64,000 nt of DNA from Acidicapsa ligni (GTDB lineage: Bacteria; Acidobacteriota; Terriglobia; Terriglobales; Acidobacteriaceae): the NCBI RefSeq assembly GCF_025685655.1, contig NZ_JAGSYG010000002.1, forward strand, positions 1 to 64,000, in the 5' to 3' direction. Below the pieces are notes generated by a model. That model did not search any database, had not been told where the DNA came from, and saw only the letters and a list, made by a program, of their open reading frames with translations. Both the position numbers and the translations under genes were made by a program. Shown here one piece after another: positions 22,465 to 29,721 of the stretch. Each line of letters begins with the position of its first letter. Within the stretch, counting starts at the first letter, position 1.

Positions 22465-22860
22465 TTAAGTGGTTGTGGAAAGAACGGTGATTCGTGCGGC
22501 GATGTGCTCGCGGAGTACGCGAATTGCATTCGTGACGATCATTCGGTCGGGAGTTGCTGAAAGGGGCGGGAACTCATAGCGGTAAACCACGCCGAAACGT
22601 GTCAGCTTTCGCAACGGTATGCCTAAATCTGGAATTGGTCCGTCAATCAGCTCCACCGCTTTCGCGAGTTTTGTCAGATTATGCGTCAGTTCGAACTCTA
22701 CCCCGAGTTGAGCGAGGAGTGCCTTCAAAAGTTTCTCTGCGGCCTGTTGTGCATGAAAGCCAAAGACCGCATCTGGAGCAAGGGGCCAGTTAAAGACAAG
22801 TTCATCCTCGGCTGCCTTATGCAGCAGCGTTTGCGCTTTGTCCGCGATTCGATTGCTCAT
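22465..22860 (-). CDS. HEPN-domain protein, probable toxin
   Basis: The 131-residue helical product has the HEPN pattern: FGFHAQQAAEKLLKALL in the N-terminal half, and an RxxxxH element (RVLREH) near the C-terminus, which matches the RX4-6H catalytic motif of HEPN ribonucleases. HEPN proteins paired with MNT nucleotidyltransferases act as toxin-antitoxin modules. Its start lies 44 bases inside the upstream MNT gene, so translation is coupled. The Tyr that is AMPylated in HepT proteins (RX4HXY) is absent. Toxicity is inferred. Confidence 0.8.
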   Translation of the reverse strand: MSNRIADKAQTLLHKAAEDELVFNWPLAPDAVFGFHAQQAAEKLLKALLAQLGVEFELTHNLTKLAKAVELIDGPIPDLGIPLRKLTRFGVVYRYEFPPLSATPDRMIVTNAIRVLREHIAARITVLSTTT

Positions 22861-23215
22861 ACACCAGCTTTCCCTCCCGCAGAATCAGAGAGAAGATGCT
22901 GTTGATGGAGTCGCGGAAATCGCTGACAGTGCTTTCGGTAGCCATGACAAGATCGATGGACAGGGGTATCTCGTCGAGAGCTTCGAGCAGTTTCTCCTCT
23001 GTTTCGCCCGCTGTCTGGGAGGAACTGTCGGGAAGAAAAACCGCGATGTCCAGGTCGCTGTCGATAGAGGCTTTGCCGCTCGGCCAGGAACCGAAAAGAA
23101 AGATTCGTGACGGCCTGGCGATCTCGATGGCCAGGCGAATCGCTTTGTCGACTTTTTCCTGGGTCGGACGCCAGCTTTCCTGGAAGGCATCGTATTGCTG
23201 TTGGGCGGCGATCAT
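22817..23215 (-). CDS. MNT-type minimal nucleotidyltransferase, probable antitoxin
   Basis: The product has the nucleotidyltransferase signature GSWPSGKASIDSDLDIAVF, a GS-X10-DxD metal-binding motif, plus a further Asp in LSIDLVM. MNT antitoxins neutralise the partner HEPN toxin by complex formation or by transferring AMP. The ATG at 23215 has GTGGAG at a good distance and gives 132 residues. An upstream TTG at 23293 would add 26 residues but has no ribosome binding site. It overlaps the HEPN gene by 44 bases in the antitoxin-first order. Confidence 0.82.
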   Translation of the reverse strand: MIAAQQQYDAFQESWRPTQEKVDKAIRLAIEIARPSRIFLFGSWPSGKASIDSDLDIAVFLPDSSSQTAGETEEKLLEALDEIPLSIDLVMATESTVSDFRDSINSIFSLILREGKLVYEQSNRGQSANAAA

Positions 23216-23338
23216 CGCAATCTCCACTGATAGCGTAGCTGAATCGTACTGCGGCAGCCAATTAAATTGGGGCGCGGGTGATTGAGTTCCCAATTTGGTC
23301 TTTGACTTCGAGGGGATTCACCCTGCCTAAGTTGGGAT

Positions 23339-23427: not shown

Positions 23428-23456
23428 TTGAATTTCCGGGAGTTTGGACGTATTCT
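23428..23456 (+). promoter_or_regulatory. Candidate sigma-70 promoter of the rimP-nusA-infB operon
   Basis: TTGAAT and TATTCT are separated by exactly 17 bases and each matches the consensus at four of six positions. Transcription would start near 23463, about 205 bases before the RimP start and about 55 bases before the terminator hairpin at 23518. Confidence 0.5.
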
Positions 23457-23517
23457 ATGAGAGCAGACGAATTTGTCCGTCCTTGTTGCTGTGGGTATGC
23501 CGGCTGGCGGAGAGATG

Positions 23518-23544
23518 AGTGGGCTTACAGCCCACTTTTTCTTT
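23518..23544 (+). terminator. Strong intrinsic terminator inside the rimP leader
   Basis: AGTGGGCT and AGCCCACT form a perfect eight-base-pair stem with a TAC loop, followed by TTTTCTTT. It lies about 125 bases upstream of rimP and downstream of the candidate promoter, so it either ends a small RNA of about 80 nt or attenuates the operon. Confidence 0.75.
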
Positions 23545-23668
23545 GGGGCAAACTTTCTGGGCGGGTGGTACCGAGTGGCCCGCGTGAGTTTTCCTTTATC
23601 GGTTTGAATGCAGGCGAAGTGAATGTCTAGGGTGCCGGTAAGCAGGCGCTTGAGCATAAGAAGTGGCG

Positions 23669-24268
23669 ATGGCATTGAAGTTGGACGAAATTCGGAAGGT
23701 TGCCGACCGCGTGGCTGGGTCGCTGGGACTGGACGTGGTGGACGTAGAGCTCACCGGTTCAGCGAAAAGCTGTGTTCTCTGCGTCTATCTGGAGAAGAAT
23801 GCCGCAGGGCGAGCAGAGATGGTTGCCCAGGTTGTGGCGGGTTCTATCGAAGCGGAAGCGGTGCCGGAGCGGTTTGCCAAGGGCGAGCTGGATTTGAATC
23901 AGCTATCGTGGCTTACGCATGAAGATTGCGCCAGTTTCAGCCGGGATTTTGGAACGCTGCTGGATGTTGAAGATCTGGGGCCGGATGGAGAGTACACGCT
24001 TGAGGCGAGTTCTCCGGGATTGGATCGGAAACTGACGGCACGCGTGGATTTTGAACGGTTCAAGGGGTCCCTGGTAAAGATCCAGACTTTTGAGCCGATT
24101 GCCAACAACCGTCACTGGCAGGGCCGCCTGACGGCTTGCGGGCAGGACGCTTTGACGCTTGATCTGACGGCGGCAAAACAGAACAGCAAGGCGCGAAAGA
24201 CCGGCGTGAGTACGGTCGAGATAGGCCTAAGCAATATCGAAAAGGCCCAACTGGTTCCGGAGTTTTAA
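23669..24268 (+). CDS. rimP: Ribosome maturation factor RimP
   Basis: RimP is needed for 30S subunit maturation. The 199-residue product has the N-terminal domain with VVDVELTGSAKSCVLCVYLEK (in parts), GRAEMV where the family has a DCE/SR-type segment, and the conserved DCASFSRDFGTLLDVED and YTLEASSPGLDRKL. It is longer than E. coli RimP (about 150) owing to an insert at about residues 58-75. The ATG at 23669 or the GTG two codons earlier could start it; the ribosome binding site is weak (ATAAGAAG). It heads the rimP-nusA-infB operon. Confidence 0.93.
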   Translation: MALKLDEIRKVADRVAGSLGLDVVDVELTGSAKSCVLCVYLEKNAAGRAEMVAQVVAGSIEAEAVPERFAKGELDLNQLSWLTHEDCASFSRDFGTLLDVEDLGPDGEYTLEASSPGLDRKLTARVDFERFKGSLVKIQTFEPIANNRHWQGRLTACGQDALTLDLTAAKQNSKARKTGVSTVEIGLSNIEKAQLVPEF

Positions 24269-24399: not shown

Positions 24400-26133
24400 A
24401 TGTCGAGCGCGTTGTATCAAAGCATTGAAGCTCTGAGCCGTGAGAAGAGCATTGATCCCGGAATCGTTGTGTCAGCCGTTGAGGAAGCTATTGCCCTCGC
24501 TACCCGCAAGTACTACAAGACGCAGGAAAACATGCGCGGGGAACTGAACAAAGAGACTGGCGAGATCAATGTTTATGCCTACAAAACGGTGATGGGCGCG
24601 GAAGACGAGATTGAAGATCCCGTCAACCAGATCACGCTGGAAGAGGCGCAGGCGATGGCGCAGGGCGCAGAGCTTGAGCCGGGCAGCGAGATTCGGTTGT
24701 ACAAGGACACGCGTCCGTTGGGACGTATTGCCGCGCAGTTGGCGAAGCAGGTCATCTTTCAGAAGGTGCGCGAAGCGGAGCGCGACACTGTGTTCAACGA
24801 GTACGCGCATCGCGAAAAGGAAGTGCTTTCCGCAGCCGTGAAGCGGATTGAGGGCCAGGACATCATCATCGACCTGGGCAAGGCTGAAGCACGTATGCCG
24901 AAGCGCGAGCAGTCGCGTCTGGAGTCCTTTTCAGTGGGCGAGCGGATTCGCGTCGTTCTGCTGAAGGTGGACCGTGCGGCCAAGGGGCCCCAGGTTGTGG
25001 TTTCGCGGGCCGCTCCAGAGCTGGTTTCAAACTTGTTCCAGTCGGAAGTGCCGGAGATTTACGACAACACGGTTGTCATTCGTGCCATTGCGCGCGAGGC
25101 TGGTGAGCGCACCAAGATTGCCGTCATGAGCCGCGATAAGGACGTCGATCCTGTCGGCGCCTGCGTGGGCATGAAGGGTATGCGCGTGCAGTCGATCATC
25201 CGCGAGCTGCGCGGCGAGAAGATCGACATCATCGAATACAACGAGGAGATTACGACTTTTGCGGAAAAGGCTTTGCAGCCGGCCAAGGTCAGCCGTGTTT
25301 CGATTGTGGATCTGGCGGACAAGCAACTGGAAGTGATCGTGGATGACACGCAGCTTTCGCTGGCGATCGGCAAAAAGGGGCAGAATGTGCGCCTTGCTGC
25401 CAAGCTGCTGGGCTGGAAGATCGACATCAAGAGCGAGGAAGAGAAGCGTCAGGAAGTAGAGCAGCAGATGACGGGCTTCTCCGGCGGCCCTTCGACGCCG
25501 ATTGAAGCAGTTACGGAGCTGGGCGAGACGATTATCCAGAAGCTGGTGGCGGCGGGTATTACGACTGTCGAGAGCCTGGCGGATATGACTCCTGAGCAGT
25601 TGGAAGAGATTCCGGGCATTGGCGAAAAGACGCTGGAGCGCATCAGCGTGGCTGTTCGGCATTACTTTGGCCAGTACGAGGATGGGGAAGCGAATCCGAA
25701 TGGAGCCGATAGCGCGGCATCCGCAGCCTCGCCTGCCGATGAAGAATCTTCTTCTGCCGGAGCAAAAGCTGTGGAAGTGGATGAGCCGGGAACTCCGGAT
25801 GAGCCTGTTGAGGAAGCGACAGCAGAACTGGATTCCGATTCGAAGGAAACGGATGCCGATTCCGAGACGCGGGAAGTTGAGAATGCGGCGGATGCAGAAC
25901 GGACGCATCCTGTTGAGGCGGAAGATGTTGAGCCTATCTCGACTGCAGATCTGACGGGGTTGTCTTCGGAAGCAGAGACGGAAGCCGCCTCTGAAGTTAC
26001 CGATGAATCCAGCGCTGAAGAGCCTGCCCCGGCAGCGAAACCAAAGAAGGCTGCGAAGAAGAAAGCGGCCAAAGCAGTAGAAGAATCGGGCGAAGAGTCC
26101 GCAGAAACGCCAGAAATTGAGACAGCAGAGTAG
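24400..26133 (+). CDS. nusA: Transcription termination/antitermination factor NusA
   Basis: NusA binds RNA polymerase and nascent RNA, enhancing pausing and intrinsic termination and taking part in antitermination. The 577-residue product has the N-terminal polymerase-binding domain, an S1 domain (about 135-200), and two KH domains with GACVGMKGMRVQSIIREL and VVDDTQLSLAIGKKGQNVRLAAKL (in parts). A helix-hairpin-helix region with EEIPGIGEKTLERI follows at about residues 400-425. The last 140 residues are an acidic Glu/Ala/Ser-rich tail, probably disordered, ending in a lysine-alanine patch. Confidence 0.96.
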   Translation: MSSALYQSIEALSREKSIDPGIVVSAVEEAIALATRKYYKTQENMRGELNKETGEINVYAYKTVMGAEDEIEDPVNQITLEEAQAMAQGAELEPGSEIRLYKDTRPLGRIAAQLAKQVIFQKVREAERDTVFNEYAHREKEVLSAAVKRIEGQDIIIDLGKAEARMPKREQSRLESFSVGERIRVVLLKVDRAAKGPQVVVSRAAPELVSNLFQSEVPEIYDNTVVIRAIAREAGERTKIAVMSRDKDVDPVGACVGMKGMRVQSIIRELRGEKIDIIEYNEEITTFAEKALQPAKVSRVSIVDLADKQLEVIVDDTQLSLAIGKKGQNVRLAAKLLGWKIDIKSEEEKRQEVEQQMTGFSGGPSTPIEAVTELGETIIQKLVAAGITTVESLADMTPEQLEEIPGIGEKTLERISVAVRHYFGQYEDGEANPNGADSAASAASPADEESSSAGAKAVEVDEPGTPDEPVEEATAELDSDSKETDADSETREVENAADAERTHPVEAEDVEPISTADLTGLSSEAETEAASEVTDESSAEEPAPAAKPKKAAKKKAAKAVEESGEESAETPEIETAE

Positions 26134-26250: not shown

Positions 26251-29200
26251 ATGAGTAAGGTTCGAATTAACGATCTGGCGCGGGAACTGGAAGTAAAGAG
26301 CAAGCAGATTCTCGATGCTCTCGCGGCTATGAATTTGGCGGATGGCAAGACTCACTCCAGCTCCATCGAGGCGGGTGAGGCAGAGCGCGTTCGCGGATAT
26401 TTTGAGCGTGGATCGCGATCGGGTGGTTCCGGCGCGTCTTCGAGCTCGCGGAACGACGAGAACAAGCCCAAAATCGATCTTTCCAATATCTCCAAGCCTG
26501 GGGATGTGTTGAAGGCGATTCTGGCGCGGAAGCAGGAAGCGGAGCACCAGGCGCAGTATGGCCATCGGCCTCCTCCGGCTGCGGTAGTGGTGAAGCCACC
26601 CGCGACTTCTACTGCGTCTCCTTCTGCTACGCCTCCGGCAGCGACCGTGGTCCCTGCGCCTCGTGTTGTGACTCCGGCGTCGGTTGCAGCGGCACGACCA
26701 GAGCCGCGCAGGATTGTGCCTCAGCCACGCCAGGCGCCTCCGATTATCCAACCGCCGGTTGTTGTAACTCCAGCGATTTCGACGCGTCCGCCATCGGGCC
26801 CGGTGATTGCTCGTCCTGCGACAAGCGCGCAGGCTGGAACGACGGTAGTACGTCCGGCAGTTGCTGTTGCGCCTCCTCCGGCAGCGGTGGTGGTCAAAGC
26901 TCCGGTTGCGCCTGCTTCGACGCCAGCACCGGTGGCTACGGCTGCTACAGCTACGGTTGTGGTTGCTCCTCCGCCTGCGAAGGTGATCACGCCGGAGCCT
27001 GAGGTGAAGACTGCGCCTGTGGTTGCAGAGCCTGCGCAGCCTGTAGTTGCGGCTTCCGCTACTCCATCTACTCCCGTTGTGCCCTCTCCTGCGGTCACTG
27101 CGTCGACGGCTGAGCCGGTGGCGGCATCCACACCTGTTGCTGCGGCATCTGTTACTGCGGCACCGGTTGTTGCCGAGTCTGCTGCTCCTGTAGTCGTTGC
27201 TCCGACGCCTGAGCCGGTTGCGGAAGTTGCTGTTGTCACACCTCCCGCGCCTCCTGCACCTCCCGCGGCGCCTGCAGTCCCTGTTCGCAAAGTGGTTATG
27301 CCGCAGACCGGACCTCGTCCGGTGTACAAGGCTCCGCCACCGCCGCCACCTTCGGCTGCACCAGCCGCTGGCGCTGCCGGTGCGAACGCTGCTGGAATTC
27401 AGCGTGGCAGACCAATCTTCGATCGTCGGCCTCAGAGTGGACCGAGCAGTGGCCCGGGTGGATATCAGCAGCGTCCACAGGGCGGCGGTTTTGCTCCTGG
27501 CGGCTTCCAGAATCAAGGGGCTCCGGGACAGTTCCCGGGTGGTCCTCGCCCCAAGCATCCAACGCGTCCTGGCTTTGCCGGTTCGGCTGGTCCTGGCGGT
27601 CCGGGTGCACGTCCTGGATTTGGTGCGCGCCCTGGATTTGGCGCTCCCCGTCCGGGTGGATTTGGCGGCGCTCCTGGCTCTGCACCACCTCCGGGTGAGG
27701 CACCACGCGCTCCGCGTCCTTCGGGACCGCCGCGTGGCCGTGGGCGTCAGCAATATCCGAAGACTAAAGAAGGCCCGATGAAGGGCTTTACGCCGCCGCC
27801 TCGTTTTGGTGGCGCGTACATGGGCAACGAGCCGCCACCGATCACGCGTGAAATCACCGTGACCGAGGGAATCAGCGTAAAGGATCTGGCTGAGAAGCTG
27901 GAGATTCGCGCCAAGGATCTCGTCGGCACGTTGCTGATGCGTGGTGTATTCGTTACGGTCAACCAGTCGCTCGATGCGGAGATGGTGAAGGATGTTGCGG
28001 CACGCTTTGGCGCTGGCGCAACCGTCATCAGCTACGAAGATGAAATTGCGAATCAGGCTATCGAAGAGATCCTGGAAAGCGACAACATCGATGAGCTGGA
28101 GGTTTCGCGTTCGCCTGTGGTTACCGTCATGGGCCATGTCGATCACGGTAAGACTTCATTGCTCGACGCGATTCGCGAGACGGATGTAGCTTCCGGTGAG
28201 GCTGGCGGCATTACGCAGCACATCGGTGCGTACAAGGTTAAGTTCACCAAGGAAGGCTCTCCGGCTTCTGGCCGAGAGATCGTCTTCCTCGATACTCCGG
28301 GTCACGAGGCGTTTACACGCATGCGTGCTCGCGGAGCCAAGGTGACGGATCTCGTCGTAATCGTGGTTGCTGCGGATGACGGTCCGATGCCTCAGACCAT
28401 CGAAGCTATCGATCACGCCAAGGCTGCCGGTGTACCGATTATCGTGGCGATCAACAAGATTGACCGTCCTGAAGCCGATGCGGAAAAAGTACAGAAGCAG
28501 CTTGCCGATCGTGGACTTGTTCCGGAAGAGTGGGGCGGCGATACGGTGTATGTGAAGGTCTCGGCCAAGAAGAAGATTGGTTTGGATCAGCTTCTCGAAA
28601 TGATCTGCCTGGTCTCCGACGTGCAGAGTCTCAAGTCCACGCCTGGCCGCAAGGCTGTGGGTACGGTGCTTGAGGCCAAGCTGGATCGTGGCCGTGGTGC
28701 CGTGGCGACTGTGCTTGTTCAGAACGGTACTCTGCGGGTCAATGAAAGCTTCATCGTCGGCAACACGTTTGGTAAGGTTCGCGCGATGTTTGACGATCGC
28801 GGACGGGCTATTACCGAGGCTGGTCCTTCGACTCCGATCGAGGTACTGGGCCTGGAAGGTATGCCGGATTCCGGCGATACGTTCCTGGTGGTTGCGGATC
28901 GCGACAAGGCCAAGGGCATTGCGCAGTACCGCAAGATGAAGGAGCGGGAATCGCAGCTTGCGAAGAGCAGCCGCGTTTCTCTGGAAGGCCTGGCCGAACA
29001 GATTCGTACGGCTGGCGTCAAGGATCTTCCGCTCATCATCAAGGGCGACGTTACGGGCTCGGTCGAGGTCATTGCCGACTCGCTGGTTCGCATGTCGACA
29101 GAGAAGGTTCGCATCAAGGTTATCCACTCCGGTGTGGGTGCGATTACCGAGAGCGATATCCTGCTGGCGTCGGCGTCGAATGCAATCATCATTGGCTTCA

Positions 29201-29721
29201 ACGTGCGGCCTGAGCGTAAATCGGCTGAGCTGGCGACACAGGAGAATGTTGAAATTCGCCTGCACTCGATCATCTACGAATTGCAGGACGAGATTCGCAA
29301 GGCCATGCTTGGCTTGCTCGATCCGACCTTCAAGGAGAACTTCCTGGGACGCGCGGAAATCATCAATGTCATGCGCATTCCCAAAGTGGGCACGATTGCT
29401 GGTTGCCGCGTAACGGATGGTGTTCTTCGCCGGGATGCGGAAGTCAAGATCATGCGTGGTGGCGAGCAGATTCACAAGGGCAAGATTGGCTCGCTTCGCC
29501 GCTTCAAGGACGATGTGAAGGAAGTTACGAACGGCATGGAGTGCGGTGTCGGCATAGCGAACTTCAGCGACCTGAAAGAAGGCGATGTGATCGAGGCCTT
29601 TACCACCGAGCGGATGGCCAACGACTTGGGAGCACTGGCAACGACCGTTGCCGCTGCCGCCAAGGAAGCGAAGGAAGCCGCAGCCGCCAATGCAGCCAAG
29701 GAGCAGTTGGCAGCCAAGTAA
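26251..29721 (+). CDS. infB: Translation initiation factor IF-2
   Basis: IF-2 is the GTPase that brings fMet-tRNA to the 30S subunit. The product is very long at 1156 residues. An N-terminal IF2 domain ([17 protein letters not shown]) is followed by a 450-residue linker of Ala/Pro/Val repeats, then Gly/Arg/Pro-rich repeats. A second IF2-N domain is near residue 540. The G domain has [14 protein letters not shown] (G1), GGITQHIG (G2), DTPGHEAF (G3) and NKID (G4), and the C-terminal domains end in KEQLAAK. The start at 26251 follows AAAGAGGCGG. A strong terminator follows. Confidence 0.96.

Follow-up and report, generated by a model that had tools for sequence, protein, structure and literature searches.

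A candidate rimP-leader-type attenuator with a covarying upstream domain precedes rimP-nusA-infB in Acidicapsa ligni

Introduction

NusA is a general transcription factor, and to our knowledge few bacteria have been examined for how its level is controlled. As far as we know, attenuation in the nusA leader of Bacillus subtilis needs no antiterminator.

The closest described system is the rimP-leader of Naville and Gautheret (2010), a GGGc..gCCC hairpin followed by a U run, which precedes rimP-nusA-infB at a distance of 4–130 nt from rimP and is reported to be specific to this operon (PMC2965389). In other bacteria, this hairpin has been interpreted as an attenuator, with NusA proposed as the regulator; the same report describes NusA feedback on the rimP-nusA-infB operon of Escherichia coli and an interaction of RimP with rRNA (PMC2965389). 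In B. subtilis, NusA is reported to control termination in its own leader (PMC12288461). RNA-seq of the rimP-nusA leader of Streptococcus agalactiae found a single start giving rise to both a short terminated RNA and a long mRNA, and NusA feedback was proposed (PMC4448216). Here we describe a leader of this kind in Acidicapsa ligni and compare it with these systems.

The leader of rimP-nusA-infB in the window

The window, that is, the whole stretch of 64,000 nt analyzed here, is part of a 5.68-Mb genome. Pfam profiles identified rimP, nusA, and infB as consecutive genes on the + strand, with two genes running in the opposite direction upstream:

22465–23293, − strand: adjoining nucleotidyltransferase and HEPN genes, divergent from the rimP operon
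23669–24268, + strand: rimP (PF17384, E 2.2e-12; PF02576, E 2.1e-11); GTG at 23663 is an alternative start
24400–26133, + strand: nusA (PF08529, E 5.2e-32; KH and S1 domains)
26251–29721, + strand: infB (PF11987, E 2.7e-40; IF2_N)

The arrangement of the HEPN gene and the MNT-like nucleotidyltransferase gene is presumably that of a HEPN/MNT toxin-antitoxin pair. Since these upstream neighbours are on the − strand, the hairpin in front of rimP (P3) cannot be the terminator of a co-directional upstream gene.

The preliminary description of this DNA had placed a promoter with a 17-base spacer at 23428 and a perfect 8-bp hairpin with a U-rich tail between the promoter and rimP. Both were found as described, and the distances that it gave from the start to the hairpin and from the hairpin to rimP agree with ours. 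The −35 element (TTGAAT, 23428–23433) and the −10 element (TATTCT, 23451–23456) match 8 of 12 consensus positions, and transcription is expected to start at about 23463. The arms of P3 (23518–23525 and 23529–23536) form 8 perfect pairs around a UAC loop; together with the tail, which ends at 23544, the hairpin spans 23518–23544, and the likely rimP ATG at 23669 follows after 124 nt. Relatives were compared by means of alignment A1, which comprises 20 of the 21 leaders of the genus and near genera (L009, with a run of N, was omitted), and of model R1 built from it. The elements of the leader are as follows:

23428–23456, + strand: sigma-70-type promoter TTGAAT-17-TATTCT, from the sequence; a similar promoter at a similar distance is found in most of 77 related leaders
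23463–23546, + strand: conserved leader RNA unit from the inferred start to the end of the U tract (R1 match, E 6.9e-21)
23463–23470, + strand: 5′ end of the leader, GCAGACGA; GCA is invariant in 20/20 A1 rows, and GCAGACGA opens 42 of 75 distinct leaders
23518–23536, + strand: P3, putative attenuator hairpin AGUGGGCU-UAC-AGCCCACU (sequence, conservation, and covariation alignment)
23536–23544, + strand: interrupted U tract UUUUUCUUU (sequence and conservation across loci)

The statistics of the window's own sequence are modest. A consensus scan of the surrounding 1.6-kb region (at least 9/12) did not list the promoter, and one terminator-like site was observed in this region versus 2.0 expected from shuffles; such a single sequence proves little. 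The 84-nt leader RNA folds with −30.8 kcal/mol (z −2.16), and 5 of 200 shuffles were equally good. We judged the promoter-terminator unit to be real because of the comparison with relatives and not because of single-sequence statistics. In the window's genome, 23463–23546 is the sole R1 match at E up to 0.01. R1 matched 95 of 200 genomes of the family, once each and in 36 of 79 genera, although the weakest of these matches may be due to chance. A set of 77 leaders consists of 73 of the 95 family matches, G273 and the 21 weakest being excluded, and four additional leaders from the genus. When the best promoter match was taken in each leader with spacers of 16–18 nt, the spacer was 17 nt in 70 of the 77, and in 60 the model match begins 6–7 nt after the end of the −10 element.

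The distance is different in more remote relatives. In 20 of the 22 loci at the order or class level (L049 and L054 were left out as repeats of L048), the best promoter-like match ends 11–42 nt before the hairpin in 14, and lies 53–61 nt from it in three and 109–129 nt from it in three. The closeness of the match in those 14 loci suggests that the terminated RNA would often be short there, about 30–60 nt.

Conservation of the hairpin upstream of rimP

The loci in which the hairpin was examined had been selected through the rimP protein, independently of the hairpin, from relatives ranging from genus to class. rimP was present in 57 of 61 genomes, among them that of the window, and 58 loci were examined, since one genome (G032) has two. 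GTGGGC..GCCCA(C/T) followed by a T-rich tail was found upstream of rimP in 58/58 loci, a set that includes near-identical loci (L048, L049, and L054), and the 3′ arm is GCCCAC in 57 of them. The loop between GTGGGC and the 3′ arm consists of 4 nt in 38 loci and 5 nt in 20.

The pattern AGTGGGCN{3,8}GCCCACTTTT has one copy in the window's genome, while its reversed control has none. P3 is also the only GUGGGC-type stem among 14 terminator rows collected from 464 kb of this genome, some sites being counted twice (once per strand or once per stem length). These 14 rows were the only perfect-hairpin terminators with U-rich tails in the 464 kb, and all of their U tracts are interrupted; strong intrinsic terminators may be of little importance in this genome. 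The interruption of the U tract was considered as a hallmark of NusA and was dropped, because none of the 14 rows has at least 7 uninterrupted U.

A letter scan of bacterial contigs with GTGGGCN{3,6}GCCCACTTTTT gave at least 119 stretches, corresponding to at least 80 loci. Since the scan selects on letters, it tells which gene follows the hairpin but not how well the letters persist; at least two of the loci listed come from genomes already in the rimP-chosen set. Among the 80 pattern loci listed, rimP lies directly downstream in 58 and nusA in two (the nusA and infB profiles used for these calls were single-sequence profiles). Four loci, with 54–119 nt of sequence, were too short to tell, and 16 had neither gene, four of the 16 offering only 198–502 nt. 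Inspected by eye, three of these 16 come from one MAG with a repeated hairpin, and the remainder resemble ordinary terminators or coding coincidences. The MAG, from Oscillospiraceae (L068, L114, and L133), contains at least three copies of GTGGGCGTTGCCCAC followed by a T run; neither rimP nor nusA was seen in their vicinity, and the copies are perhaps a dispersed repeat.

The letters of the hairpin are not universal among rimP loci. Among five rimP loci fetched by RimP_N, that of Marinimicrobia, also a pattern match, has GTGGGC and that of a cyanobacterium has GTGGGT..GCCCAC, and no such hairpin was found at one Aquificota-type locus. In two Bacteroidota loci (L182 and L183), rimP is preceded by a hairpin and a U run, but the stem consists of other letters. 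The sequence before rimP in E. coli K-12 is TGGGC-TTTA-GGCCC followed by a T run, which shares GGGC/GCCC with the element described here but differs in the outer letters.

The hairpin upstream of nusA in Chloroflexota

The two pattern loci with nusA downstream (L112 and L134) are from Dehalococcoidia and Chloroflexi, and neither genome gave a RimP_N match. Among 61 Chloroflexota genomes, 53 contain NusA_N and 6 contain RimP_N; draft genomes can miss genes, so that absence of RimP_N counts per assembly. The best 30 of the 53 nusA loci by NusA_N score, all from genomes without a RimP_N match, were examined; L210 and L134 are one and the same site, and L184/L185 and L196/L197 are near-identical pairs. 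At all 30, a hairpin with a T-rich tail lies upstream of nusA, no more than about 280 nt away. Its letters are GUGGG..CCCAC in 29 loci and the compensated GCGGG..CCCGC in one (L195), and in L196, L197, and L213 the pair next to the GUGGG core has changed from A-U to C-G with the core unchanged. The strict form AAGTGGG..CCCACTT occurs at 31 places in 26 of these 30 genomes, 26 of the places being at nusA; its reversed control was found in three genomes, at one place each. In 5 of the 6 Chloroflexota genomes with RimP_N, no such hairpin with a U run was found in the 300 nt before the match, and the remaining one has a GGGGCC..GGCCC hairpin with a U run.

The retention of the hairpin before nusA in genomes without a RimP_N match favours NusA, rather than RimP, as the presumed feedback protein. 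Such genomes make the choice between the two proteins testable.

An additional upstream domain in the acidobacterial leaders

The consensus obtained with the 77 leaders and model R2 comprises P1 (UUU/AGA), P2a, and P3, with an apical hairpin P2b in some of the leaders. The upstream helices lie in the window at the following positions:

23472–23515, + strand: P1, UUU (23472–23474) with AGA (23513–23515); consensus pairs, pair probability 0.44–0.45 when the RNA ends at P3
23476–23511, + strand: P2a, UCCGUC (23476–23481) with GGCGGA (23506–23511); compensatory changes, pair probability 0.29–0.46 in the window
23488–23504, + strand: P2b, GCUG (23488–23491), a 9-nt loop, and CGGC (23501–23504); compensatory changes, pair probability 0.16–0.20 in the window

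In alignment A6 of the 75 distinct leaders, pairing holds in 97.2% of the cells, and both sides have changed in 134 cells compared to 35.3 in shuffles (0/500 reach 134). These counts are generous, since the alignment had been fitted to the structure and changes are inherited among related rows. When the partners were slid, the both-side changes fell to 12–29. Compensatory changes occur at 8 of the 10 pairs of the P1+P2a helix and at 4/4 pairs of P2b, where 29–35 of the 75 rows are gapped. In P3, 4 of 7 pairs never vary, and the four changing cells are all compensated. The unfitted alignment A5 (10 of the 77 leaders, picked for a well-aligned P2b, with the structure written from one of its rows) has 9 cells changed on both sides compared to 2.6 in shuffles (0/500). 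As for the other alignments, A2 holds 8 of 9 rows (L024 omitted, and the group-B loci L032–L038 outside the alignment), and 7 weak rows in A3 beyond the 77 were set aside afterwards. These comparisons indicate that a larger covarying domain, predicted between the start and the terminator, is shared by the 77 leaders of the genus and part of the family.

In the window's own RNA, the P1/P2 fold has −24.0 kcal/mol versus −30.8 kcal/mol for the best fold, in which a purine linker is paired with the U tract. P1/P2 and P3 do not overlap, which argues against a classical antiterminator, but the linker is able to pair with the U tract; P1/P2 would more likely keep the linker off the U tract or give a factor a binding surface. 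The domain is a defined target for binding assays. A UGANNGCAC loop was found in 14 of the 75 leaders. Within the window's genome, P2b, the 5′ end, and the GGCGAA box are absent from the 16S rRNA region (±1.5 kb), where GTGGGC alone occurred, once.

Other members of the family (group B) are arranged differently upstream; 14 of 15 have a GGCG(A/C) box ahead of P3. The longer UGGCG(A/C) box, about 12–16 nt before P3, was found in 12 of the 15 leaders of group B (L022–L030, L032–L035, L037, and L038) and in 5 of 20 distinct order- or class-level leaders, compared to 3.2% of random 30-mers. Single folds of five group-B leaders (L022, L023, L025, L029, and L030) show the basal CAGU of P3 paired with a 5′ ACUG, a possible competing structure.

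Proposed mechanism and alternatives

We consider it probable that the element is a rimP-leader-type transcription attenuator, at which NusA-stimulated premature termination limits the production of NusA itself. What the analysis shows is the conservation, the single copy of the pattern in the genome, the covariation, and the linkage to nusA; termination, its response to NusA, and the role of P1/P2 are inferred. RNA polymerase would start near 23463 and transcribe about 75 nt, whereupon some of the transcripts would be terminated at the GUGGGC hairpin and the U tract, yielding a short RNA of about 80 nt; the others would read through into rimP-nusA-infB. NusA encoded by the operon would stimulate termination at P3, so that more NusA would result in less operon mRNA, and P1/P2 may modulate the termination.

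The preliminary description had read the leader as an attenuator or a small RNA, called feedback through NusA plausible, and proposed checking whether the promoter-terminator pair is conserved in relatives. The attenuation reading gains support from the comparative evidence and from the published reading (PMC2965389), the feedback from the 30/30 Chloroflexota loci, and the conservation is borne out by the stem at 58/58 rimP loci and the recurrence of the promoter and its distance in the 77 leaders.

A further-reaching possibility, to which we give less credence, is that GUGGG..CCCAC is a sequence-specific terminator read by NusA, its letters being kept in several phyla for that reason, and that part of one acidobacterial family has gained a second RNA domain (P1/P2a/P2b) which tunes the termination by binding a factor, perhaps NusA, IF2, or RimP. 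The same stem core letters in Acidobacteria and Chloroflexota suggest that the sequence is read and not only the shape. If this were true, the GUGGG hairpin and P1/P2 would constitute a two-part leader sensor, for which we found no description.

Alternatively, the hairpin may fix operon expression at one level, with NusA exerting no specific feedback. Intrinsic termination requires no extra factor, and the sensor is a proposed one, but a fixed stop would need no identical core letters in two phyla at loci chosen by gene, and NusA feedback has been reported in E. coli (PMC2965389) and B. subtilis (PMC12288461); we therefore regard a constant setting as unlikely. It is more doubtful still that the terminated RNA of about 80 nt also works in trans as a small RNA. 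P1/P2 covaries, and the discussion of a ProQ study lists an sRNA derived from the rimP leader (PMC5391140), whereas the promoter-like match of 14/20 order- and class-level relatives lies so close to the hairpin that the RNA would be about 30–60 nt. Feedback by RimP instead of NusA seems very improbable: RimP is said to interact with rRNA (PMC2965389) and rimP directly follows the hairpin in 58 of the 80 pattern loci listed, but Chloroflexota without a RimP_N match retain the hairpin before nusA and 5 of the 6 with RimP_N lack it before rimP, a poor fit. We attach hardly any weight to a DNA operator at which a repressor binds the palindrome; GTGGGC..GCCCAC is palindromic as DNA and remains so through the compensatory changes in the stem, but the spacing of 4 or 5 nt (38/58 and 20/58 loci) and the T-rich run after the stem fit an RNA terminator better. 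Leader-peptide attenuation by a short ORF that precedes the hairpin or runs through it, equally improbable, was rejected because no short ORF is conserved among 20 leaders: a TTG at +10 is present in 19/20 but opens frames of 3 to 263 codons, and an ATG just before P3, which in the window (23515) opens a 30-codon frame, is present in 8/20 with frames of 11 to 204 codons.

Comparison with known systems

Compared with Rfam RF01770 (rimP), the element is alike in its operon position and presumed role. However, RF01770 gave no match above the gathering score in the window or in any of 11 genomes tested, and matched E. coli alone among 14 control genomes. Rfam showed nothing relevant in the window, and only two weak unrelated matches in eight related leaders at E up to 1. 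Since RF01770 is blind to the element here, the element may be under-annotated. No description of the larger element or of the Chloroflexota case was found in the titles and abstract starts of the open-licence papers searched.

Judged by its sequence, the element in the window is the published rimP-leader attenuator. It has the GGGc..gCCC stem followed by a U run, lies 124 nt before rimP (within the published 4–130 nt; PMC2965389) in an operon with nusA and infB, and has a stem motif that is not common to other terminators, with one exact copy in the window's genome. It differs in the covarying P1/P2 that precedes the hairpin, whereas that report describes no larger conserved element (PMC2965389). 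The hairpin before nusA in Chloroflexota without RimP_N is a second difference and an addition to the published rimP-leader.

In S. agalactiae, termination takes place 31 nt after the start (PMC4448216), in contrast to the 75–80 nt or so expected here; the short promoter-hairpin distance of the order- and class-level relatives resembles the S. agalactiae case. The nusA leader of B. subtilis is similar in that intrinsic termination in the 5′ leader governs transcription into the gene and is stimulated by NusA (PMC12288461). The response to NusA was shown in B. subtilis and is predicted here, and an upstream domain is unmentioned in the portion of that report available (PMC12288461). As for autoregulation by NusA, a terminator lies within the leader of the nusA operon, and the element stays with nusA without rimP in 30/30 Chloroflexota loci (the best 30 of 53).
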